Under the pieces are notes generated by a model that made no database searches, was not told the DNA's origin, and saw only the letters and a program-made list of their open reading frames with translations. A DNA stretch of 64,000 nucleotides from an uncultured Gammaproteobacteria bacterium (GTDB lineage: Bacteria; Pseudomonadota; Gammaproteobacteria; Eutrophobiales; Eutrophobiaceae): contig CALSOP010000002.1 of assembly GCA_943788005.1 (NCBI GenBank), positions 124,001 to 188,000 on the forward strand. The letters are read 5' to 3'. The position numbers and the translations under genes were made by a program. Every line of letters begins with the position of its first letter. Position 1 is the first letter of the stretch. This document shows positions 969-41,667 of this stretch, in pieces.

Positions 969-1967
969 TCAATAGGTTATGTGCTTCACTTGTTGTTTAT
1001 CGTAATGCATTTGTCGTCTCATCGCTAACGTGTTTTGTTTGATTAGCTCTCGTTGACTTAGTATTTCTTCGCCACGCCCATAAAAGACATCAGCCGGTGT
1101 CAGGTTATCAAGTGATTCATGATAACGCTCATGGTTGTAATAACTCACAAAACGCTGCAACTGTTCCTCCAGTTCCCCGGGGAAATAATAGTGGTGAAGT
1201 AATATCTGATTCTTCATTGAACGATGCCAGCGCTCTATCTTGCCTTGTGTTTGTGGATGATAAGGTCGACCTCGAGTGTGCGTCATACCGTTTTCTTCAA
1301 GGTAATCGGCTAATTCACCGGAGATATAACACGGGCCATTGTCACTGAGTAAACGCGGTTTATGATTTACCTTTACTGTATCAAGTCCCGTAAAGCGTAA
1401 GGCGTCATCCAGCGTATCAGAGACATCACGGCTACTCATGCCCGTACATAAACGCCAGGCAATAATGTAACGTGAGTAATCATCTAATACCGTGGATAAG
1501 TAATACCAACCCCAACCGATAATCTTGAAATAGGTAAAATCCGTTTGCCACATCTCATTCACGCGCGTAGTGGGCTGTTGAAACTTATCACTGGCCTCCA
1601 TCAGGATATAGGCCGGACTGGTAATTAAGTCTTGTTCTTTCAGCAGCCTGTACACCGTGGATTCTGAGACGAAGTAAGCCTTGTTGTCAGTGTAATTTAC
1701 GGCTAACTCTCGTGGAGACAAATCAGGCTTCTCTAAGGCTAACTCAATAACGGCTTCACAGTGGTCTTCGGTGATTTTATTCCATACCGCATGGGGAATC
1801 GGCTTCTTGTCTTCCAAGCCATCAACGCCATTCTCTTCATAACGTTTGAGCCAGTTGTAAAAAGTGGACTTATGAATGTCCAGCCGAGTCAGCGTTTGTC
1901 GAACCGACAGATCTGAGTTCTGTACCAGTTGAATAATCTCGACTTTATCCGATGCTAAGTACCTCAT
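969..1967 (-). CDS. IS3-family transposase OrfB (DDE integrase core)
   Basis: 332 residues. Catalyses strand transfer of the element. An N-terminal helix-turn-helix (RQTLTRLDIHKSTFYNWLKRY) precedes an rve integrase core; the acidic triad is visible as WQTDFTYF, LLSDNGPCY and QGKIERWH. The start codon overlaps the orfA stop as ATGA (1964-1967), suggesting translational coupling. The C-terminal NHERYHESLDNLTP motif is typical of IS3 OrfB. Intact. Confidence 0.95.
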   Translation of the reverse strand: MRYLASDKVEIIQLVQNSDLSVRQTLTRLDIHKSTFYNWLKRYEENGVDGLEDKKPIPHAVWNKITEDHCEAVIELALEKPDLSPRELAVNYTDNKAYFVSESTVYRLLKEQDLITSPAYILMEASDKFQQPTTRVNEMWQTDFTYFKIIGWGWYYLSTVLDDYSRYIIAWRLCTGMSSRDVSDTLDDALRFTGLDTVKVNHKPRLLSDNGPCYISGELADYLEENGMTHTRGRPYHPQTQGKIERWHRSMKNQILLHHYYFPGELEEQLQRFVSYYNHERYHESLDNLTPADVFYGRGEEILSQRELIKQNTLAMRRQMHYDKQQVKHITY

Positions 1968-2326
1968 ATATCGTCCTCCCCATCCCCGAGCACGCTTTTT
2001 TTAAGCAGCCGATTCTCCATGACTACTTCGCCTAAGGTTTCTTTCAGCGCAGATGTTTCAGCACGCAGTTCTTTGACTTCATCTGAGGTCGCTTCACGTA
2101 CGATATCGCCTGATAAACGTTTCTTACCTGCCTCCAGAAAGTCTTTCGACCAACGGTAGTAAACATTTGGGTTTAGTCCTTCCTTGCGACATAGCTCAGC
2201 GATGCTTTCTTCGCCACGTAAGCCTTCAAGTACGATACGAATTTTTTCTTCTGCTGAATATTTTTTACGGGTGCGTCGACGAATATCGCGCACAGTATGT
2301 TCTACACTTCTTTTACTTGTCATCAT
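1964..2326 (-). CDS. IS3-family transposase OrfA (DNA-binding)
   Basis: 120 residues. A helix-turn-helix of the transposase_8 type (KYSAEEKIRIVLEGLRGEES, then AELCRKEGLNPNVYYRW) recognises the IS ends, followed by a leucine-rich coiled coil (ELRAETSALKETLGEVVMENRLLKK) that mediates OrfA/OrfB multimerisation. It ends in the ATGA overlap with orfB. An alternative start one codon downstream is possible. Intact. Confidence 0.95.
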   Translation of the reverse strand: MMTSKRSVEHTVRDIRRRTRKKYSAEEKIRIVLEGLRGEESIAELCRKEGLNPNVYYRWSKDFLEAGKKRLSGDIVREATSDEVKELRAETSALKETLGEVVMENRLLKKSVLGDGEDDI

Positions 2327-8605: not shown

Positions 8606-9172
8606 ATGCCAAAAGCTAGTGATCTTAAACGGGGAATGGTAATTGATATCAATGGTATTCCCTATGCCGTAAAAAATGTTGATGCAAAGAGTCCTACTTC
8701 TAGAGGCGCAACAACCCTTTATAAGATTCGTTTCAAGAATCTCCAATCTGGACAGAAATTGGACGAGTCTTATAAAAGTGACGAGTTATTAAAAGAAGCC
8801 GATTGTGTGCGCGTACCAGTCCAGTTTTCATATAAGGATGGTGACAATATCATTTTTATGAATTCCGAAGACTACTCTCAATATGAAGTTATTGAGGATG
8901 ATATAGAAGACCTGATGGGTTACGTCACAGAAGGTCTGGAAGGTTTGACAGCATTGATCATGGATGGTGTGCTGTTAAGTATTGAATTGCCCCAGTATGT
9001 AGACATGGAAATTGTCGACACCGTGCCAAATATTAAAGGCGCAACAGCAGCAGGCAGAACTAAACCTGCCACGCTATCGACTGGCATAGAAGTGCAAGTA
9101 CCCGAGTACATGGAGATTGGTGAGGTTATTAGGGTAAATACTGGAACGGGCAAATTCATGTCTCGCGCATAA
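8606..9172 (+). CDS. efpL: Elongation factor P-like protein EfpL (YeiP)
   Basis: 188 residues. A ribosome-binding factor that relieves stalling at polyproline and related motifs. Three domains are recognisable: the KOW-like N domain with tip loop SPTSRGATT carrying the conserved arginine in place of the modified lysine of EF-P, a central OB domain, and the C-terminal OB domain ending in NTGTGKFMSRA. The signature GATAAGRTKPATLSTG identifies the YeiP branch rather than Efp. Typical length, own start ATG, 20 bp ahead of the next gene. Confidence 0.93.
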   Translation: MPKASDLKRGMVIDINGIPYAVKNVDAKSPTSRGATTLYKIRFKNLQSGQKLDESYKSDELLKEADCVRVPVQFSYKDGDNIIFMNSEDYSQYEVIEDDIEDLMGYVTEGLEGLTALIMDGVLLSIELPQYVDMEIVDTVPNIKGATAAGRTKPATLSTGIEVQVPEYMEIGEVIRVNTGTGKFMSRA

Positions 9173-9621: not shown

Positions 9622-9721
9622 GGTCAATCACAGACTGTCGGTTTTAGTGAAGGTAATAAATTTAGAAAGAGCTTCTCTTGAGTAAGTTAAAAATAATTTT
9701 ATATCAACCCCTGAAGTGGTC

Positions 9722-10678
9722 ATGTCATTTTTTATGTGCTTGTATTTTTCTATCTCTGGCGTTTCCACTGGAGAGCAAGGAGCAAGGAGCAAGGAGCAAG
9801 TAGGTGCATCCCTGTTGGCTTTTCAGGAACATGCCCTGAATGACAAAATATATGATATTAAAAATAGTCGATTCATTAACAAAGCCAATATGCTAGACAG
9901 TATCACAGGTAATAAGTATATATTATTAGGAGAAACACACGATAATATTCAGCACCATGAAAATCAGGCTTGGGTGGTCAATGAGTTAGCAAGGCAGTCG
10001 TTTTCCACCAGCGTGTCATTTGAAATGATCGACGATATACAGGCCGAATTTATTTCGGATAGAAATATTGAGTCTTCTAATGAACTGATTGAGTTATTAA
10101 ATAATTTTAAAACAGCCTGGAATTACCAAGACTATTACAAAGTATTATTCGAGAGTGTCTTACAGGCAGGACTTAAAATTCTTCCAGCAAATTTAGAACG
10201 GGAAAAACTTTATAATATTATTAAAAATAACGAGAACAAGTTGCCGGTTGAAACTGAACAGTTAATGACCGAAGTTTCATTATCACCTGCGATGGAAGAT
10301 AACTTACGCAATGAAATCGTTGAATCTCATTGCGGAATGATAGATCAAGGATCAGCAAAACCAATGATGAATGGTCAGCGAATTCGTGATGTAACTATGG
10401 CGCTAAGTTTGTTGAATTCCGATGCTGATAGAAGAGTGCTAATTGCTGGACGCGGACATATACGTAATGACCGTGGCGTGCCCATGTATCTATCTTCGCA
10501 AGATAAAGATGCAAAGATAGTAACAATTGCGCTGCTTGAAGTGGAACAAGATCATGTTGATGTAGCATCATATCTAATAGATCGGGACACTATGAAGTTT
10601 CCCTTTGATTATGTCTGGTTTACTGCTCGTGCAGTTAGAGAAGACCCTTGTCTTTCTTTTAAGAAACAACATAAGTAG
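9722..10678 (+). CDS. ChaN-like heme-binding family protein with repeat-containing N terminus
   Basis: About 318 residues. The ChaN/PF04187 family (TIKI-like fold) is shown by [19 protein letters not shown] near residue 60, SFEMIDDIQ, and [13 protein letters not shown] near 240. E. coli ChaN binds heme. The chosen ATG at 9722 (or GTG at 9716) gives a short hydrophobic leader. A more convincing signal peptide starts at TTG 9678 (MSKLKIILYQ.. then [13 protein letters not shown]) but is in a different frame and stops at 9801 because of a heptamer repeat at 9773-9800. The real N terminus is therefore uncertain and may be switchable. Confidence 0.78.
9773..9800 (+). repeat. Tandem heptanucleotide GAGCAAG x4
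   Basis: Four perfect units lie inside the 5' end of the ChaN-like gene, just after the signal-peptide region. Seven is not a multiple of three, so each gain or loss changes the frame. With one more unit or two fewer, the signal peptide that starts at 9678 would be joined in frame to the ChaN domain. Confidence 0.9.
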
Positions 10679-10689
10679 TAATTCTAACT

Positions 10690-11301
10690 ATGACTAAAGC
10701 CGATACAGTCGTTGTTCTGGATTTTGAGACCACTGGTCTTTCTCCTGACTATGGTGACCGTGCGATAGAGATTGGAGCAGTGCGAGTTGAGGATGGAAAA
10801 GTTGTCGCTCGTTTTCAGGAACTAATGAATCCAGGACAGCGTATCGATAGTTTTATTGAAGACTATACGGGGATAACTAATAGCATGTTAAAAGATGCCC
10901 CACCTTGTATAGAGGTAATGCATAAGTTTGCTGATTTTATTAATGGTTATAATCTGGTTGCCCATAATGCCTCATTTGATAAGCGTTTTCTTGATGCGGA
11001 GTTGACTAGAATATCCCGGACTTACACAGGGCAATTTGCATGTTCCCTATTGACGGCAAGACGAATCTATCAAGACTCTCCGAATCACAAATTGGGAACC
11101 TTGGTAGAATACGCAAATATTCCAGCAGACGGTACTTTTCACCGAGCTTTATACGATTCAGAAATGACAACAAAATTATGGCTGACCATGCTTGATAGTA
11201 TAACTGAGCGATACGCTATTTCATCAATACCATTTGCATTGATTCAAAAGTTAACGAAAATACCTAAGCACAATGTGAATAAATTCCTGCAAGGTTGGTA
11301 A
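10690..11301 (+). CDS. DEDDh 3'-5' exonuclease (DnaQ-like)
   Basis: 203 residues. Exo I motif [12 protein letters not shown], Exo [19 protein letters not shown], and Exo [13 protein letters not shown] place the DEDDh acidic residues and general-base histidine. Short stand-alone domain resembling the proofreading subunit of DNA polymerase III and other RNase T-like enzymes. The C-terminal 40 residues are unassigned. Starts 11 bp after the ChaN-like gene, so likely the same transcript. The substrate cannot be told from sequence. Confidence 0.88.
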
Positions 11302-17156: not shown

Positions 17157-18850
17157 ACTAAGTGTTCGTTTGTTATCTATTGCAGCCATGTTGTTTATCC
17201 CTTGCAATATTGTTTGCTGCCGACGCAATACAGGGTGAGGTGACACAACAGCCCGTCAACGTAACCGCTATTACGATGTTTCTCCTGATTTGTGTAACAG
17301 GCACACTGGGGATAACCTATTGGGCGGCAAGGCGCACGAAAAGCACCAAGGATTTCTATGCTGCTGGTGGCTACGATCACCGGTCTGCAAAATGGCCTCG
17401 CTATTGCGGGTGACTATATGTCTGCCGCGTCCTTTCTCGGTATTTCCGGATTGGTTTTTGCGAGTGGTTTTGATGGGCTGATCTATTCCATCGGTTTTTT
17501 AGTCGGCTGGCCGATTATCCTCTATTCCTGCTAGCGGAACGTTTAAGGAACCTTGGGAAGTATACCTTTGCTGATGCGGTGAGTTATCGTTTACAGCAAC
17601 CGTTGCCCATCCGTAGCTTGGCCGCCTCTGGAACGCTTATCGGTGGTCTTGCTGTACCTGACTCGCGCAATTGGTCGGTGCTGGCAAGCTCATACAAATA
17701 TTATTTGGCCTCGAATATCATCTCGCCGTTGTGATCGTCGGCATACTGATGGTTTTGTACGTCACCTTCGGCGGCATGCTGGCGACAACTTGGGTGCAGA
17801 TAATTAAGGCCGTACTTATTGTTGTGTGGTGCAACTTTCATGGCCATTGCCGTCATGTATCACATGGATTTTTCCTTTGAGACTTTGTTTGTCAGACTGC
17901 CGTCGAAGTACACAGTAGCGGGATTAACTATCATGTCCCCCGGTGGGCTGGTGTCTGACCCTGTATCTGCTATCTCACTTGGGCTTGCCCTCATGTTTGG
18001 TACTGCTGGTTTGCCGCATATCTTGATGCGATTCTTTACCGTGCCTGATGCACAAGAGGCGAGGAAGTCGGTTGTCTACGCGACGGGATTTATTGGCTAC
18101 TTCTTATATTCTGACTTTCATTATTGGTTTCGGCGCGATCGTCTTTTTAGTAAACAACCCGGAGTTTCTTAGACCCTGCAGACGGGTGGGATTCTGGGTG
18201 GTAACAATATGGCGGCAATTCATTTGTCTAAATGCCGTCGGGGGCGAGGTCTTTTTGGGATTTATCTCTGCCGTCGCCTTCGCCACTATTCTGGCGGTTG
18301 TTTCTGGTTTGACATTAGTCTGGCGCCTCAGCTATTTCACATGATTTGTATGCCAGCGTGTTACGCACATGGTGAAGTGCTTGAAGGGTGAGGAGATCCG
18401 TAGTGTCCCGAATTGCGACAGTTGGCTTGGGTGTTGCCGCAATCTTTCTTGGCATCCTGTTCGAACAGCAGAATGTTGCCTATATGGTTGGGCTTAGCCT
18501 TTGCCATTGCCGCGAGTGTTAATTTCCCCGTCTTGTTCTTATCTATGTATCTGGCAAAGGCTGACAACGCAGAGGCGCCTTTATATGGCGGTGCAGTTTC
18601 GGTTTGCTCACTGCTGTGTCGTGCATGATCCTGGGGCCAACAATCTGGGTCGATATCCTGGGCAACGCGGAAGCAATTTTTCCTTATAAACATCCTGCGC
18701 TGTTTTCTATGAGTGCTGCTTTCATAGCGATCTATATTATTTCGAAACTCGATAATTCCGCGTCAGCACGCGAAGAAGCATCTAGCTTTTGAAGACCAAT
18801 ATGTACGTTCTCAAACGGGGTTGGGCTCTGAGGGTAGTGTTCAGCACTAG
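17150..18850 (+). pseudogene. actP: Cation/acetate symporter ActP, multiply frameshifted
   Basis: Homology runs the full length of an SSS-family acetate permease but hops frame many times: near 17200, 17370, 17520, 17660, 17830, 18105, 18170, 18310 to 18420, 18620 and 18790. Recognisable blocks in order are [102 protein letters not shown] and QYVRSQTGLGSEGS. Residues between indels are well conserved, which suggests recent loss or consensus errors rather than old decay. As written it cannot give a full symporter. Confidence 0.85.
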
Positions 18851-18859
18851 CACATTAGA

Positions 18860-19411
18860 ATGAAGCGGTGTCAATGGTGTGAAGGTGATTCGCTTTATAT
18901 CAAATACCACGATAAGGAGTGGGGTGTGCCAGTCCACTCTGACAGGAAAGTTATTTGAGTTTCTTGTACTGGAAGGTGCGCAGGCAGGCTTGAGCTGGAT
19001 CACGGTGCTTAAGAAACGTTCAGGCCTATCGTGCTGCCTTTGATAAGTTTGATTTCAATATAATTGCTACCTATCAAGAATCCAAAATACAGTCCTTATT
19101 GAGTAATCCCGGTATTATCAGAAATAAACTAAAGGTTAGGGCTGCTGTTAAAAATGCTCATGCATTTTTAAAAGTGCGTCAAGAATTTGGCACTTTTAAT
19201 AAATATATATGGCAGTTCACTGAACACAAGACAATTCAGAATTCATGGTCATCTTTAGAAGACATTCCTGCCAATACTGAAAGCTTCTGATCGCATGTCA
19301 AAAGATTTAAAAAGTCGAGGGTTCACCTTTGTCGGCTCAACTATCTGTTATGCTTTCATGCAGGCGACAGGTATGGTCAATGACCACACTATTGGATTGC
19401 CACCGACATAA
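18860..19411 (+). pseudogene. tag: DNA-3-methyladenine glycosylase I, frameshifted
   Basis: The pieces spell a Tag protein: MKRCQWCEGDSLYIKYHDKE, then EWGVPVHSD, FEFLVLEGAQAGLSWITVL (catalytic segment with the 3-methyladenine pocket Glu), YRAAFDKFD, NPGIIRNKLKVRAAVKNA, and GFTFVGSTICYAFMQATGMVNDH, which includes the zinc-ligand His. Frame changes occur near 18950, 19015 and 19285. Length without indels fits the family (about 185 residues). It belongs to the same damaged block as actP. Confidence 0.85.
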
Positions 19412-19430
19412 CGAGCTGAGAGGCTAGAGA

Positions 19431-20385
19431 ATGTTTATTCGACCTAAGGATTATATTGGCGTCGATGACAAGCTGTTTTTTGCCGTTGTCAGTGAATGCC
19501 AGGAAGAAGGTCGCGCCTTGACCTGGTTACGCTATATTAAAGATGGGTATGGCATGCATAAGATTGATACGGTAGCAGGCCAGAAAGCTGAGTCAGTGAA
19601 TTCACGCCCGGAATTCCTGTTCTCACAGCCAGTATGCTGATAGCTGATTTACATGGTATTCCGCTGGAATCTATCAGCCGTGTTTACCGTCCCGATCAAA
19701 CTGTGGTTCGGCTTCTGCGCATGACAGAGCCCCGATTACAAACAACGAGATGCTATTAAAATACTCAAGCTTTTACTTGATGCAGGAATTCAAGAACAGT
19801 ATTTGGGCATTACGGGTTCACTGATGTTAGAGACGCATAATGAGAACTCTGATGTCGACATAGTAATCTATGGTCGTGAACTATTTTTTAAGAGCAAGAC
19901 AACGTATAAAAGTCTTTACCTTGAGTCAGGCCATACTTCGGTCCATTAGAGTGATTCCTCTGTGGCAGGATGCTTATCAACGACGAGATTGCTGCATTAA
20001 GTTTTGAAGAATATACTGCTCTCATGAGATTAAGAAAATTTAATAAATGCGTCTCTGGTACTAGCAAGGTTGATTTCAGTATGGTTCCTGAAGTTTATGA
20101 ACGGTTTCAGGAAAATGGGCCTTTTAAAAAACACGGGACAGGATAAAATCGCAGCCATAGTGACTGATGACACCTATGCTTTTGATTTCCCAGCACGTTA
20201 TTTTACCGACCATAAAACTATCAGCGAGGTGGTTTCCTATACGGCTACCTACGTTGGCCAGGCTCGAAATGGTGAAAATGATTGAAGCGTCTGGATTTAT
20301 AGAGCAGGGTGGTGATGGAAAGAAGAGATTATTAGTCGGCACGAGTAGAGAAGCTAATAATGAATATATTCGAGTTTTTACTTAA
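19431..20385 (+). pseudogene. Predicted nucleotidyltransferase-like protein, frameshifted
   Basis: MFIRPKDYIGVDDKLFFAVV opens the gene; later segments in other frames are TASMLIADLHGIPLESISRVY, a Pol-beta-type nucleotidyltransferase core GITGSLMLETHNENSDVDIVIYG (GS and DxD), and GQDKIAAIVTDDTYAFDFPARY to the end. Frame changes lie near 19605, 19735, 19940, 20070 and 20270. Intact length would be about 315 residues. I do not recognise a specific function beyond the nucleotidyltransferase core. Confidence 0.6.
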
Positions 20386-20509: not shown

Positions 20510-20872
20510 ATGATGACAAGTAAAAGAAGTGTAGAACATACTGTGCGCGATATTCGTCGACGCACCCGTAAAAAATATTCAGCAGAAGAAAAAATTCGTA
20601 TCGTACTTGAAGGCTTACGTGGCGAAGAAAGCATCGCTGAGCTATGTCGCAAGGAAGGACTAAACCCAAATGTTTACTACCGTTGGTCGAAAGACTTTCT
20701 GGAGGCAGGTAAGAAACGTTTATCAGGCGATATCGTACGTGAAGCGACCTCAGATGAAGTCAAAGAACTGCGTGCTGAAACATCTGCGCTGAAAGAAACC
20801 TTAGGCGAAGTAGTCATGGAGAATCGGCTGCTTAAAAAAAGCGTGCTCGGGGATGGGGAGGACGATATATGA
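20510..20872 (+). CDS. IS3-family transposase OrfA, copy 2
   Basis: Identical 120-residue product to the orfA of copy 1: transposase_8 helix-turn-helix and a C-terminal leucine-rich coiled coil, ending in the ATGA overlap with orfB. Confidence 0.95.
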   Translation: MMTSKRSVEHTVRDIRRRTRKKYSAEEKIRIVLEGLRGEESIAELCRKEGLNPNVYYRWSKDFLEAGKKRLSGDIVREATSDEVKELRAETSALKETLGEVVMENRLLKKSVLGDGEDDI

Positions 20873-21867
20873 GGTACTTAGCATCGGATAAAGTCGAGAT
20901 TATTCAACTGGTACAGAACTCAGATCTGTCGGTTCGACAAACGCTGACTCGGCTGGACATTCATAAGTCCACTTTTTACAACTGGCTCAAACGTTATGAA
21001 GAGAATGGCGTTGATGGCTTGGAAGACAAGAAGCCGATTCCCCATGCGGTATGGAATAAAATCACCGAAGACCACTGTGAAGCCGTTATTGAGTTAGCCT
21101 TAGAGAAGCCTGATTTGTCTCCACGAGAGTTAGCCGTAAATTACACTGACAACAAGGCTTACTTCGTCTCAGAATCCACGGTGTACAGGCTGCTGAAAGA
21201 ACAAGACTTAATTACCAGTCCGGCCTATATCCTGATGGAGGCCAGTGATAAGTTTCAACAGCCCACTACGCGCGTGAATGAGATGTGGCAAACGGATTTT
21301 ACCTATTTCAAGATTATCGGTTGGGGTTGGTATTACTTATCCACGGTATTAGATGATTACTCACGTTACATTATTGCCTGGCGTTTATGTACGGGCATGA
21401 GTAGCCGTGATGTCTCTGATACGCTGGATGACGCCTTACGCTTTACGGGACTTGATACAGTAAAGGTAAATCATAAACCGCGTTTACTCAGTGACAATGG
21501 CCCGTGTTATATCTCCGGTGAATTAGCCGATTACCTTGAAGAAAACGGTATGACGCACACTCGAGGTCGACCTTATCATCCACAAACACAAGGCAAGATA
21601 GAGCGCTGGCATCGTTCAATGAAGAATCAGATATTACTTCACCACTATTATTTCCCCGGGGAACTGGAGGAACAGTTGCAGCGTTTTGTGAGTTATTACA
21701 ACCATGAGCGTTATCATGAATCACTTGATAACCTGACACCGGCTGATGTCTTTTATGGGCGTGGCGAAGAAATACTAAGTCAACGAGAGCTAATCAAACA
21801 AAACACGTTAGCGATGAGACGACAAATGCATTACGATAAACAACAAGTGAAGCACATAACCTATTGA
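20869..21867 (+). CDS. IS3-family transposase OrfB, copy 2
   Basis: Identical 332-residue DDE integrase to that of copy 1, with all three acidic residues (WQTDFTYF, LLSDNGPCY, GKIERWH) intact. The element should be mobile. Confidence 0.95.
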   Translation: MRYLASDKVEIIQLVQNSDLSVRQTLTRLDIHKSTFYNWLKRYEENGVDGLEDKKPIPHAVWNKITEDHCEAVIELALEKPDLSPRELAVNYTDNKAYFVSESTVYRLLKEQDLITSPAYILMEASDKFQQPTTRVNEMWQTDFTYFKIIGWGWYYLSTVLDDYSRYIIAWRLCTGMSSRDVSDTLDDALRFTGLDTVKVNHKPRLLSDNGPCYISGELADYLEENGMTHTRGRPYHPQTQGKIERWHRSMKNQILLHHYYFPGELEEQLQRFVSYYNHERYHESLDNLTPADVFYGRGEEILSQRELIKQNTLAMRRQMHYDKQQVKHITY

Positions 21868-28473: not shown

Positions 28474-29370
28474 TTATTTGGCAGCAAAAACCCTTGCAAT
28501 TTCAAAGGCCTTTTCATGATCAACATAGATCGGTTTATCTGACTCCCGCATCATTTCAAATAAGCGGTGATGCACTTTATTTTTTATATGACCAACCTTC
28601 AAAGCACCGATAGCAACGGCCTTTTTCGGCGTGAAATCGAGTTCTTTGCCCATGTCATTTATATCAACCCCTTCAATGCCCGCTGGGGGAACTGCGTTTG
28701 CATCAGTCGCGACTATTAATTCTGGGGCCTGCTCCAATTGAGGTTTTGAAATAACCTGAAGACCTGCCTTAGCTGCATTGATTATGACATTTGATGTCTG
28801 TAATAAGTTTTCAATGGCCTCATCCGAACCAATATTCTTACCCTGCATATTTACATCAAAGCGTGCGTTATATTCATCGGCTATAGCTTGACCGACCTTT
28901 TCCCCTCGTGTGCTACCAAGAAAAACTTTCGCACCGCATTTTGATGCCAAGATACCGGAACACACACCGACAGGTCCGGTTCCACCCAGAACATGTATTG
29001 TCTTACCTTCCAGTGATTCGTTGCTTATGTTTTTTACCCATACTTCTACGCAGGCAACCATTGCCGCTGCCGTTGTAATTGCACCACTTGGATCAGCAAA
29101 TATTGATACCTCAAATGGTGGGGCCATGGCGGCCTTAGCACGATAGAACATGTCTATAGCCAAACCATAATCACGACCACCAATAAAAATACCCGTGCGT
29201 TGCGAGCCTTGTGAGTAGATAAGATCTTGTGTCAGGTAATGGATGTCATCGAGAGCAACTTCTGTGTAGGGGACAACACCTTCAATCTTGGCACTATGAG
29301 CCATATTAACGTCAAACGGGCTGACATTTTTGGTAGGGGTAAATATATGTACAAAATAACGTTCGTCCAT
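28474..29370 (-). CDS. mtdB: NAD(P)-dependent methylene-H4MPT dehydrogenase
   Basis: 298 residues. Oxidises methylene-tetrahydromethanopterin in the cytoplasmic formaldehyde oxidation route. The N-terminal domain reads FVHIFTPTKNVSPFDVNMA, and a Rossmann domain follows with HVLGGTGPVGVCSGILAS. GGRDYGLAIDMFYRAKAAM and ATDANAVPPAGIEGVD are typical of MtdB. Its presence shows that this organism uses the archaeal-type H4MPT pathway, although no other H4MPT gene (fae, mch, fhc) is in the window. Stands alone here. Confidence 0.93.
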   Translation of the reverse strand: MDERYFVHIFTPTKNVSPFDVNMAHSAKIEGVVPYTEVALDDIHYLTQDLIYSQGSQRTGIFIGGRDYGLAIDMFYRAKAAMAPPFEVSIFADPSGAITTAAAMVACVEVWVKNISNESLEGKTIHVLGGTGPVGVCSGILASKCGAKVFLGSTRGEKVGQAIADEYNARFDVNMQGKNIGSDEAIENLLQTSNVIINAAKAGLQVISKPQLEQAPELIVATDANAVPPAGIEGVDINDMGKELDFTPKKAVAIGALKVGHIKNKVHHRLFEMMRESDKPIYVDHEKAFEIARVFAAK

Positions 29371-29465
29371 GTTTCATAATAGCATGACGAAAAATAATTA
29401 TGTAACCCAAGCGGGAGACAATTTAATGATTGAGATCTCTGATAACTTTAATTGTTATAAATAAT

Positions 29466-29795
29466 TTATTGAAAGCTTACACTTTTATAAAATGGAGAAT
29501 CCATACCCTTACTTCCTTCTTCTACGACATCTCCATTAAATAGCTTTACCGACAAGTTACCATTAATCTGCTTTGTGAAAGGTATTAGAAGTTCATCAAT
29601 ATACTTTTGAGCACAATCGAGCGATGTGAATTCATAAAAACCACCAACAGTATGGTTATTAATGCCGCTAAGCCAAGTCTTGGATTTCAATCCTTCGAAC
29701 TTCTTCATTTCAGGGTTGATAGATTTCCAATCAACCTGATCAAATGGGACTGAGACCTGATACTCAGCATAAAGAAATATTTTTTCCTGGCTCAT
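29466..29795 (-). CDS. YdhR-like putative monooxygenase
   Basis: 109 residues. A ferredoxin-like alpha+beta barrel of the YdhR type is suggested by FLYAEYQVSVPFDQVDW, GLKSKTWLSGINNHTVGGFYEF and ALDCAQKY-like SLDCAQKYIDELLIPF. Function unproven. The start at 29795 has an AGGAG seven bases upstream; a second ATG directly before it is also possible. Confidence 0.75.
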   Translation of the reverse strand: MSQEKIFLYAEYQVSVPFDQVDWKSINPEMKKFEGLKSKTWLSGINNHTVGGFYEFTSLDCAQKYIDELLIPFTKQINGNLSVKLFNGDVVEEGSKGMDSPFYKSVSFQ

Positions 29796-29878
29796 CATTT
29801 ATCTCCTAAAAAATAGAATTTTTATCAGACCCTACTTATTTCATATTAAAGGGCACTGCACTTTTAAACCCGGGATTT

Positions 29879-30208
29879 CTATAGCACTCCACCAAGGTAC
29901 CCACTTAAAAAGAAATAAATCATCACAATAACCATAAGCAGATAAAGAAGTAGGAACAAGGATGAAATTATTTTAGTGGGGATAATCTCTGAATATACCA
30001 AACACTTATAACTACTAAATATCCCTAATATAAATAAAATGAATCCCAGCGAAAGACCAATCGCAAACGTGTGAAAGGTTTCATCATTATTGATTGTTTC
30101 GGGAAAACTAATGCCAAGGTAAGGCGTTAAATTAAGTAACACAATAGGGACTAGAGTGATTACCCAATAAATAACCTTAATTCTTGTTTTATCTTCTGTC
30201 ACTTCCAA
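29879..30208 (-). CDS. Four-helix membrane protein, unknown
   Basis: 109 residues, four hydrophobic helices (VIYWVITLVPIVLLNLTPYL, FAIGLSLGFILFILGIFSSY, IISSLFLLLYLLMVIVMIYF). No family recognised. The neighbouring YdhR-like gene ends 80 bp away, so an operon is unlikely. Confidence 0.45.
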   Translation of the reverse strand: MEVTEDKTRIKVIYWVITLVPIVLLNLTPYLGISFPETINNDETFHTFAIGLSLGFILFILGIFSSYKCLVYSEIIPTKIISSLFLLLYLLMVIVMIYFFLSGYLGGVL

Positions 30209-30556
30209 AGGAATCCCGCCTGTTTTGATATTCGATTTATAAATCGATCTTAAGTTACAGATAAAATGAAATCTACTGGAAAATCAAACCAAGATAATTT
30301 TCTTAAAGTGATGATATTTCGACATCCTGACGATTATTCATCAAATATCCAAATAATATTTAGTATTCGGTAGCATTATTATTTCGTGATTAGTAATAAC
30401 CGTTTTACCTATGGCTAATGGAATTGAGGTGTCTGTCACACCTTATTGAATAATTGTGACTCAGTTGACAAATACTATATCCCATATGACCCAAATCATT
30501 AACTTGGCACTTCTGTTGCAATAGATTATTTAATACTGATTCTTGGAGATGAGAAA
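30209..30556 (+). other. Intergenic, nothing recognised
   Basis: 348 bp of AT-rich sequence between divergent small membrane-protein genes. No coding, RNA or repeat signal stands out; it should carry promoters for both neighbours. Confidence 0.4.
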
Positions 30557-30763
30557 ATGAAAAATTTAAATCTTAATATACCACTATCGATTATTTCAGT
30601 AGGCGTCATGTTATTTCTATTTGCGCCTTCCGGGTTGTTTTCCTCTTATACTATTCAAGAAATATCTGTGGCCGGTTTATTGGTCGAATTGCTTGGGATC
30701 ATAATCGGGTCAATTATGTTTTATAGACATAAAGTAACTGAGATAAGTTTGGAAGAAATGTAA
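30557..30763 (+). CDS. Small two-helix membrane protein, unknown
   Basis: 68 residues with two hydrophobic segments (IPLSIISVGVMLFLFAPSG and AGLLVELLGIIIGSIMFY) and a charged tail. A GGAGATGAG ribosome site precedes the ATG. No family recognised. Confidence 0.5.
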   Translation: MKNLNLNIPLSIISVGVMLFLFAPSGLFSSYTIQEISVAGLLVELLGIIIGSIMFYRHKVTEISLEEM

Positions 30764-30804
30764 ATTGAAAAGGAATTAAAATATACAACTGCATGAAGCT
30801 CAAC

Positions 30805-30824
30805 TGCCTACACGGATGCAGGTA
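30805..30824 (+). repeat. Dispersed palindromic repeat, copy B
   Basis: TGCCTACACGGATGCAGGTA matches copy A with a few changes. The next 180 bp hold further GGTAGAG and CTACATGGA pieces that look like diverged partial copies. The stretch 30764-31023 has no gene. Confidence 0.5.
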
Positions 30825-31023
30825 AGGGGCATGAGCACGACTACATGGACCCTCTCGGTACCCCTTGAGGTGTTTGTGGGGGAGGTAGAGTCGTATCAGG
30901 AAGTGTGAAGCCTACTCTTGAGTGCAATGACAAAGGTAGAGCACCAACAGTTGGCACTTTAGGTAACGCCTGGAACAGTTACAGAGCACACAGAGCTTGA
31001 TTCAGTATAAGATTATCAATTTT

Positions 31024-31396
31024 TTATCTTTCTTTAGCCATAAGGTCTTTGAAGAAACCGAAGATATCTTTCTCGACATAATCTTTGAATTCACCTGCAT
31101 CAAAGAAAACTGAAAAACATTTACTGCAACTCTCATAATGAATGTGCGGTTGATCAGCGACAACCATTTTTATCATTGTTGCAGAACAACTTGGACAACA
31201 AATATCTCCTTTTCTATCGAATACTTTTCCGAATGCAGAATCCCCCAGTATCAATTTCATCCGCATCTTTTTTTTGTTTCAGAAATTCATGCTTTGCATG
31301 ATCAAACCAGAGGCCTTTGCAGGATGAACAGCGTTTAACAATCACATTATAAATTTCAACGTCTTCCATTTCTGCATCGCATTTTGGGCATTGCAT
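31024..31396 (-). pseudogene. TFIIB-type zinc-ribbon protein, single frameshift
   Basis: The first frame gives MQCPKCDAEMEDVEIYNVIV then KRCSSCKGLWFDHAKHEFLKQKK, a zf-TFIIB ribbon. The second frame continues DSAFGKVFDRKGDICCPSCSA, MIKMVVADQPHIHYESCSKC and FFDAGEFKDYVEKD, a second ribbon. The break is at a run of five C on the plus strand (31244-31248); one base fewer would restore a 123-residue double zinc-ribbon protein. This may be a real mutation or a homopolymer error. It is divergent from the small DUF3149-like gene, with FNR-like sites between. Confidence 0.8.
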
Positions 31397-31513
31397 ATAA
31401 ATTCTCCTTATTTTTAAAAGGGTATAGCTTACTCAAACACCAATTCCTTTAGCCTACTGTCCTCTAAAGCTGGACGTATTCTATAGAATCTAACAAGTTC
31501 ATTAGTTTTGATA

Positions 31514-31527
31514 TTGATCTAAATCAA
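31514..31527. promoter_or_regulatory. FNR/ANR-type box 1
   Basis: TTGATCTAAATCAA matches the palindrome TTGAT-N4-ATCAA perfectly. It lies between divergent genes, 118 bp upstream of the zinc-ribbon gene start. Confidence 0.65.
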
Positions 31528-31589
31528 CATTGTAATTTTAAAAAAAGAATGAAATGTAAAACTTGTGTCCATTATCAAATCAGTAAAAA

Positions 31590-31603
31590 TTGATCTTGAT
31601 CAA
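31590..31603 (+). promoter_or_regulatory. FNR/ANR-type box 2, DUF3149-like gene promoter
   Basis: TTGATCTTGATCAA is a perfect TTGAT-N4-ATCAA site. A TAATTT -10-like hexamer follows at 31625-31630, which would place the site near -41 from the start of transcription, the usual class II activator position. Confidence 0.7.
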
Positions 31604-31666
31604 AAATATTTTTCGACAGTGTTTTAATTTATACATAATTACCTAAAAAATATTGGAGAATAGATA

Positions 31667-31798
31667 ATGGAGCTATGGTTGAAACTACTATTCGGCAATC
31701 CTATTGGATTGATGTCAATGATTGTCGTTTTCATAACCTTTGTGATCATCAGTTATTTCTTATATATGCTTTATAATAAATCAAAACCTAAATCCTAA
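31667..31798 (+). CDS. Small membrane protein, DUF3149-like
   Basis: 43 residues: MELWLKLLFGNPIGLMSMIV, one transmembrane helix, then LYNKSKPKS. The pattern of a short amphipathic start, one helix and a basic tail resembles DUF3149. TTGGAGAA ribosome site 9 bp before the ATG. The promoter has a class II FNR-type site, so it is probably expressed at low oxygen. Confidence 0.68.
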   Translation: MELWLKLLFGNPIGLMSMIVVFITFVIISYFLYMLYNKSKPKS

Positions 31799-31986
31799 CT
31801 TAGGTAATCATTGATAATTTACAACCACTACAGGAATCTAGGCGTATTCTTACTTCTGCAACAATATCTATCGAGCCTGTTTCACAGTTTATTTTATTAC
31901 AGAGCCTTTCCAACTCATTTACAAAAAATGATTACCTTATTAAGTAAGCATCTTTACTTAATTTATTCCAATAAGGACACATTCTA

Positions 31987-32658
31987 ATGATAGTAGAGAG
32001 AACTAAATTGGTTGCCGAGAGGAATGAAATTCGTTCAAAAATAATGGCTATGGGCCAGGACTCGGTTAATCTATTAAACCAGTTCAAGGAAGCATTGGTT
32101 CATCTTGATGTCGCACGCGCGGAAAATATTACAAATGGAGATGAACGTTTTAATCATCTTTATCAGAGCATCCATGATGAATGCTTAGTCATGATCGCGC
32201 GCCAACAACCAGTCGCATCCGACTTGAGGGAAGTTATATCTGATCTTCAGATTGCCATCGAACTTGAACGAATTGCAGATCACATTGCTTCAGCAGCCCG
32301 AATCGTACATACCTTATCGGTCGCTGCCATCCCACCAGTCTGGGATAAGATTATAAACATGGTCAGTCAAACTTCAGACATGATGAGTAATATGCTAGCC
32401 GCTTTCCATGATATGGATGGGGAAAAAGCAGAAGCAATCGCTACCAGCGATGATGATATAGACAGGATGGACCAACAAATTGTCACTGAAATAATCGATT
32501 ACATGAAGTCAAACACAGAAGCTATCGAAAACGGCACCCACCTCATCTGGCTAGTGCATGATATAGAACGTATCGCGGACCGTGTCACTAATATCGGCGA
32601 ACAAATTGTCTTTAACGCCTCGGGTAAAATAGCCGACTGGAATGTCTCTAAAGCTTAA
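31987..32658 (+). CDS. phoU: PhoU-like phosphate-signalling protein
   Basis: 223 residues. Two three-helix PhoU repeats with metal-binding acidic motifs: LERIADHIASAARIVHTL near residue 96 and DIERIADRVTNIGEQIVF near 200. PhoU restrains PhoR and phosphate uptake. No pst or phoBR genes adjoin it, which is unusual; it may serve another transporter or be transcribed alone. TAAGGACAC ribosome-site region. Confidence 0.88.
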   Translation: MIVERTKLVAERNEIRSKIMAMGQDSVNLLNQFKEALVHLDVARAENITNGDERFNHLYQSIHDECLVMIARQQPVASDLREVISDLQIAIELERIADHIASAARIVHTLSVAAIPPVWDKIINMVSQTSDMMSNMLAAFHDMDGEKAEAIATSDDDIDRMDQQIVTEIIDYMKSNTEAIENGTHLIWLVHDIERIADRVTNIGEQIVFNASGKIADWNVSKA

Positions 32659-40309: not shown

Positions 40310-40672
40310 ATGATGACAAGTAAAAGAAGTGTAGAACATACTGTGCGCGATATTCGTCGACGCACCCGTAAAAAATATTCAGCAGAAGAAAAAATTCGTA
40401 TCGTACTTGAAGGCTTACGTGGCGAAGAAAGCATCGCTGAGCTATGTCGCAAGGAAGGACTAAACCCAAATGTTTACTACCGTTGGTCGAAAGACTTTCT
40501 GGAGGCAGGTAAGAAACGTTTATCAGGCGATATCGTACGTGAAGCGACCTCAGATGAAGTCAAAGAACTGCGTGCTGAAACATCTGCGCTGAAAGAAACC
40601 TTAGGCGAAGTAGTCATGGAGAATCGGCTGCTTAAAAAAAGCGTGCTCGGGGATGGGGAGGACGATATATGA
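40310..40672 (+). CDS. IS3-family transposase OrfA, copy 3
   Basis: Identical 120-residue helix-turn-helix plus coiled-coil protein to the other two copies, intact, overlapping orfB by ATGA. Confidence 0.95.
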   Translation: MMTSKRSVEHTVRDIRRRTRKKYSAEEKIRIVLEGLRGEESIAELCRKEGLNPNVYYRWSKDFLEAGKKRLSGDIVREATSDEVKELRAETSALKETLGEVVMENRLLKKSVLGDGEDDI

Positions 40673-41667
40673 GGTACTTAGCATCGGATAAAGTCGAGAT
40701 TATTCAACTGGTACAGAACTCAGATCTGTCGGTTCGACAAACGCTGACTCGGCTGGACATTCATAAGTCCACTTTTTACAACTGGCTCAAACGTTATGAA
40801 GAGAATGGCGTTGATGGCTTGGAAGACAAGAAGCCGATTCCCCATGCGGTATGGAATAAAATCACCGAAGACCACTGTGAAGCCGTTATTGAGTTAGCCT
40901 TAGAGAAGCCTGATTTGTCTCCACGAGAGTTAGCCGTAAATTACACTGACAACAAGGCTTACTTCGTCTCAGAATCCACGGTGTACAGGCTGCTGAAAGA
41001 ACAAGACTTAATTACCAGTCCGGCCTATATCCTGATGGAGGCCAGTGATAAGTTTCAACAGCCCACTACGCGCGTGAATGAGATGTGGCAAACGGATTTT
41101 ACCTATTTCAAGATTATCGGTTGGGGTTGGTATTACTTATCCACGGTATTAGATGATTACTCACGTTACATTATTGCCTGGCGTTTATGTACGGGCATGA
41201 GTAGCCGTGATGTCTCTGATACGCTGGATGACGCCTTACGCTTTACGGGACTTGATACAGTAAAGGTAAATCATAAACCGCGTTTACTCAGTGACAATGG
41301 CCCGTGTTATATCTCCGGTGAATTAGCCGATTACCTTGAAGAAAACGGTATGACGCACACTCGAGGTCGACCTTATCATCCACAAACACAAGGCAAGATA
41401 GAGCGCTGGCATCGTTCAATGAAGAATCAGATATTACTTCACCACTATTATTTCCCCGGGGAACTGGAGGAACAGTTGCAGCGTTTTGTGAGTTATTACA
41501 ACCATGAGCGTTATCATGAATCACTTGATAACCTGACACCGGCTGATGTCTTTTATGGGCGTGGCGAAGAAATACTAAGTCAACGAGAGCTAATCAAACA
41601 AAACACGTTAGCGATGAGACGACAAATGCATTACGATAAACAACAAGTGAAGCACATAACCTATTGA
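40669..41667 (+). CDS. IS3-family transposase OrfB, copy 3
   Basis: Identical 332-residue DDE integrase to the other copies, all catalytic residues present. Confidence 0.95.
   Translation: MRYLASDKVEIIQLVQNSDLSVRQTLTRLDIHKSTFYNWLKRYEENGVDGLEDKKPIPHAVWNKITEDHCEAVIELALEKPDLSPRELAVNYTDNKAYFVSESTVYRLLKEQDLITSPAYILMEASDKFQQPTTRVNEMWQTDFTYFKIIGWGWYYLSTVLDDYSRYIIAWRLCTGMSSRDVSDTLDDALRFTGLDTVKVNHKPRLLSDNGPCYISGELADYLEENGMTHTRGRPYHPQTQGKIERWHRSMKNQILLHHYYFPGELEEQLQRFVSYYNHERYHESLDNLTPADVFYGRGEEILSQRELIKQNTLAMRRQMHYDKQQVKHITY

Follow-up and report, generated by a model that had tools for sequence, protein, structure and literature searches.

A four-unit GAGCAAG array places the predicted native leader of a ChaN-like protein out of frame in an uncultured gammaproteobacterium

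The stretch of DNA analysed here (64,000 nucleotides, referred to as the window) carries a tandem array of a heptanucleotide in the 5' region of a gene encoding a ChaN-like protein, for which more than one start codon may be considered. This arrangement raises the question of which N terminus is native to the protein, and whether the array represents a phase-variable switch or a single expansion that has broken the reading frame. The features on which this question turns are the following:

9678..9803, forward strand: predicted native leader frame, with a TTG start, an n-region that contains lysine, a hydrophobic core and PLESKEQ; it ends at a TAG and not in ChaN.
9716..10678, forward strand: ChaN-like ORF at four units, taken from the ORF list, with GTG 9716 or ATG 9722 as its start.
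9773..9800, forward strand: GAGCAAG array, 4.0 perfect copies with 100% match, as reported by TRF.
9890..10492, forward strand: ChaN (Cofac_haem_bdg) domain, PF04187, E 1.1e-33, residues 59-259.

The four perfect GAGCAAG units described in the first-pass annotation were thus recovered by TRF. A three-unit 21-mer probe matched only this array in the whole 2.41-Mb genome, and no other pair of GAGCAAG units (allowing at most one mismatch) was present in the window, for which shuffling gave an expectation of 0.02. A repeat survey of the complete contig C2 (1,071,122 bp) and 160,000 bp of contig C1, together 1.23 Mb or about half of the MAG, identified the array as the sole perfect one with a period of 5-12 and at least four copies. 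The only other arrays of period 5-12 to pass the thresholds were a 12-bp unit in 3.25 copies, a 6-bp unit in 3.5 copies and a 5-bp unit in 3 copies, the longest homopolymers measured at most 9, and no further contingency-type or phase-variable repeats were found in the surveyed 1.23 Mb. Simulated sequence (fourth-order Markov, five runs of 848 kb) contained no arrays of 3.5 copies or more; the GAGCAAG array is longer than expected by chance, and far above it.

The GAGCAAG unit is free of stop codons in all three frames, encoding EQGARSK in each, so that a change in unit number shifts the frame and adds no stop inside the array. At four units, the TTG 9678 frame encodes 41 residues before it is closed by the TAG at 9801-9803. 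In window coordinates this frame corresponds to 0 mod 3 and the ChaN frame to 2 mod 3, from which it follows that a gain of 7 bp or a loss of 14 bp, equivalent to five or two units, joins the leader to ChaN. The earlier proposal that five or two units bring the TTG 9678 leader into frame, and that four do not, is therefore correct. As in phase variation, a non-triplet tandem array lies within a coding region and its length sets the frame; the repeat number decides whether this leader is joined to ChaN.

To establish which N terminus is native, the locus was compared with the other genomes of the genus, 4 of 11 of which were shown to carry a ChaN orthologue (80, 76, 74 and 72% identical). These congeners are designated G005, G006, G001 and G007, and the named records matching them are the Gammaproteobacteria MAGs OFTM63, OFTM147 and OFTM102 and the Thiotrichaceae MAG UBA973. 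When genome contigs were scanned for another genome of this species, just these four congeners and distant ChaN homologues were returned. In each of the four, the leader is in frame with ChaN and begins with TTG or GTG (or an adjacent ATG), the open frame proceeding from a lysine-containing n-region through a hydrophobic core and an invariant PLESKEQ straight into ChaN. The TTG 9678 frame of the window encodes the same leader peptide as that of G005 (36 residues compared), with dN 0.147, dS 0.555 and a dN/dS of about 0.26, a comparison too short for a firm statement.

The distance from the start codon to ESKEQ is 108 nt in all five leaders, whereas the ChaN domain lies 152 nt from the start codon in the window versus 138 nt in every congener, a difference of +14 bp or two units. 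Consistent with this, pairwise DNA alignment with G005 revealed one 14-bp insertion, located at the array, and the G005 ORF aligned to the window splits into two frames precisely at that point. The presence of an in-frame leader with 14 bp less in all four congeners identifies the TTG 9678 leader as the native N terminus, and indicates that the window holds a +14-bp expansion predicted to detach it from ChaN. The first-pass annotation had also rated this leader as the better signal peptide, which was upheld both by its conservation in frame in the congeners and by its properties, as it exhibits a KD13 of 2.42 and a net charge of +3 before the core, versus 2.02 and 0 for the N terminus starting at 9716 or 9722. 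The array itself is absent from all four congeners, which carry one or two degenerate units at this site, all in frame; the seed reads GAGAGTAAGGAGCAG in G005 and G001 and GAAAGCAAGGAACAG in G007, compared with GAGAGCAAGGAGCAAG... in the window. Given that only a degenerate seed is present in the congeners, the array is lineage-specific and not a contingency locus maintained across the genus.

The family assignment of the downstream domain is clear, as it scores 117.4 bits against a PF04187 gathering cutoff of 27.7 and covers profile positions 1-213 of 213, while the Campylobacter ChaN structure 2G5G matches the window protein with an E value of 3.8e-9. This homology is the sole basis for the earlier description of the protein as 'surface or iron-related'; the iron-related part found no support in its surroundings, where no iron-uptake gene was observed among the neighbours scanned and the best upstream Fur box match (11/19) did not exceed background (median 11). 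The position occupied by chaN, between the gene at 8606-9172 and an exonuclease gene at 10690-11301, is variable in the genus: the window has a DUF1499 gene and chaN, in G003 an MFS-transporter-like gene adjoins the exonuclease gene, and G004 has a shortened ORF of that kind (L074, L077).

For the ChaN domain, comparison with G005 yielded dN 0.098, dS 0.525 and a dN/dS of about 0.19. Values between the window and its congeners ranged from 0.13 to 0.22, and those among the congeners themselves from 0.13 to 0.23. A three-way split of distances between the window, G005 and G006 gave branch dN/dS values of about 0.24, 0.12 and 0.20, respectively. Judged from these ratios, the ChaN domain is still under purifying selection, and because the value of the window branch is not neutral, either the lesion is recent and the domain not long dead, or the domain is still made.

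The latter case directs attention to the start codons that remain available at four units. In addition to GTG 9716 and ATG 9722, these include a start downstream of the array:

9815..10678, forward strand: possible reinitiation product without a signal peptide, starting at TTG 9815 in the ChaN frame, just 3' of the leader TAG.

TTG 9815 is preceded by an SD-like TAGGTG with an anti-SD energy of -8.1, which is within the best 1% of random positions, and it could conceivably yield a signal-less ChaN by reinitiation. A different outcome would be replacement of the leader, whereby the expansion has become fixed, ChaN is made from ATG 9722 (or GTG 9716), and the hydrophobic N terminus so acquired still exports a protein whose function is little altered. 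The open ChaN ORF under purifying selection is consistent with this proposal, as are the KD13 of about 2.0 of the alternative N terminus and the SD energy of ATG 9722, which is ordinary and equal to that of TTG 9678. However, the n-region here carries no positive charge, an SD is missing altogether from GTG 9716, and the frame of ATG 9722 is closed by a TAA in three of the four congeners (G005, G006 and G001), which argues that ATG 9722 is not an ancestral alternative. In the window, this frame is open to ChaN only through the additional 14 bp and a CAA at the position of that TAA. Leader replacement is consequently considered improbable. As to the export signal of the current allele, the native leader is off-frame and the alternative N terminus is weaker.

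An assembly or sequencing artefact, in which the true genome has two (or five) units, draws some support from conservation of the expected native frame in all relatives, and the contig is of uneven quality: at 17.2-20.3 kb, all 43 short indels relative to G005 are insertions, a pattern typical of an unpolished long-read consensus. Nevertheless, the errors in that region measure 1-3 bp, unlike the clean 14-bp duplication of two units. Furthermore, the 14 bp constitute the only frame-breaking coding indel between 8.6 and 16.7 kb relative to G005, against which all other conserved genes of this interval are intact, suggesting that the expansion is probably real. We regard an artefact as very unlikely.

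The insertions at window positions 17200-20300 are spread over three consecutive genes, which we take from the G005 sequences to be actP-like, tag-like and nucleotidyltransferase-like. Gene decay was considered as the context at 17-20 kb and rejected, since insertions without a single short deletion look like sequence error; the apparent pseudogenes in what looks like an unpolished long-read stretch should not be trusted. One of three copies of an insertion sequence adjoins this stretch, the copies having identical Pfam scores and each comprising a 120-aa HTH_Tnp_1 ORF and a 332-aa rve transposase that overlap by 4 bp:

969-2326, reverse strand: insertion sequence, first copy.
20510-21867, forward strand: insertion sequence, second copy.
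40310-41667, forward strand: insertion sequence, third copy.

Elsewhere in the window, 2.6 kb at 29370-31987 are without an ORF of at least 120 aa, and could represent a low-quality stretch or decayed genes.

The explanation that we favour, with a modest degree of confidence, is a recent slippage expansion of seed heptamers to four units that produced a ChaN allele with its leader off, a state that is in principle reversible. Small changes in the ESKEQ-coding stretch, which directly follows the signal peptide in an exported ChaN-like protein, would have given rise to two perfect GAGCAAG copies, which slipped-strand replication would then have enlarged to four. The additional 14 bp would separate the ChaN domain from the signal peptide that begins at the TTG, such that in this genome ChaN would be made only from secondary starts, either ATG 9722, whose hydrophobic N terminus is poorer, or, by reinitiation and with no signal, TTG 9815. 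The native protein would be regained if one unit were added or two were lost. From this arrangement we infer slippage as the mechanism, its recency, the loss of export and the start now used. Counting against this account, the N terminus from ATG 9722 happens to be fairly hydrophobic and the SD energy of that start is ordinary, so that export may persist; in addition, a single metagenome assembly with an insertion-rich stretch a few kilobases away may contain an error here.

The first-pass annotation had proposed slipped-strand phase variation, in which cells would switch between four units (leader off) and five or two (leader on), so that export of ChaN varies from cell to cell as in neuO. 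Its structural part stands: a stop-free heptamer array, far above chance by simulation and shuffling, lies in the 5' coding region, and the native leader comes into frame at two or five units. The switching itself is less well matched by the data, as the array is short, has no companions in the surveyed half of the genome and is absent from every congener with the gene. The genome also encodes an intact MutS homologue, for which reason a loss of mismatch repair was rejected, although 7-nt loops are poorly repaired by MutS. Phase variation is plausible, albeit rather unlikely, and the leader-off expansion is the more economical of the two.

A more speculative variant, which we consider doubtful, is that of a newborn contingency locus, in which ESKEQ codons would have become a heptamer array switching the export of a ChaN-family protein; reinitiation at four units may then give a cytosolic form, such that localization and not presence is switched. 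Should the unit number vary in the population, the locus would encode a phase-variable member of the ChaN family in a lineage known only from uncultured material; the ancestral state, before the repeat, would be kept in sister species, and the locus would be useful for studying the origin of contingency repeats. If it does not vary, the array is one isolated expansion that breaks the frame, and annotation of the gene should start at TTG 9678, with a frameshift, and not at ATG 9722.

With regard to known systems, the window protein shares the PF04187 family with Campylobacter jejuni ChaN (PDB 2G5G). 2G5G is entered in the PDB as a putative lipoprotein, whereas ChaN leaders of the genus (L010, L011, L012 and L018) are hydrophobic, with a mostly cysteine-rich core, the invariant PLESKEQ and no lipobox, and are encoded, in the neighbourhood scanned, away from iron-uptake genes. 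The nearest ChaN homologues outside the genus (L013 and L014) possess a lipobox and look like typical lipoproteins.

Among heptamer systems, hmw1A and hmw2A of Haemophilus influenzae carry heptanucleotide repeats in 13-38 copies, mainly in promoters, where they tune transcription (PMC2651432). The window array resembles these in that 7-bp tandem units affect one gene, but differs in lying in a coding frame and in having four copies; the H. influenzae survey included heptamer arrays from 3 units up (PMC2651432). In neuO of Escherichia coli K1 (CUS-3 prophage), phase variation of the heptanucleotide AAGACTC, with proven population heterogeneity, involves 3-53 units, 20 being the commonest (PMC13001214). 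Four units lie at the bottom of the range, although neuO alleles of only 3 units are on record (PMC13001214). Unlike neuO, the window array is known as four units in one genome and is placed after a signal peptide; in both cases, however, a heptamer array is situated in the 5' coding region, and whether the full protein is made depends on the unit number modulo 3 (PMC13001214).
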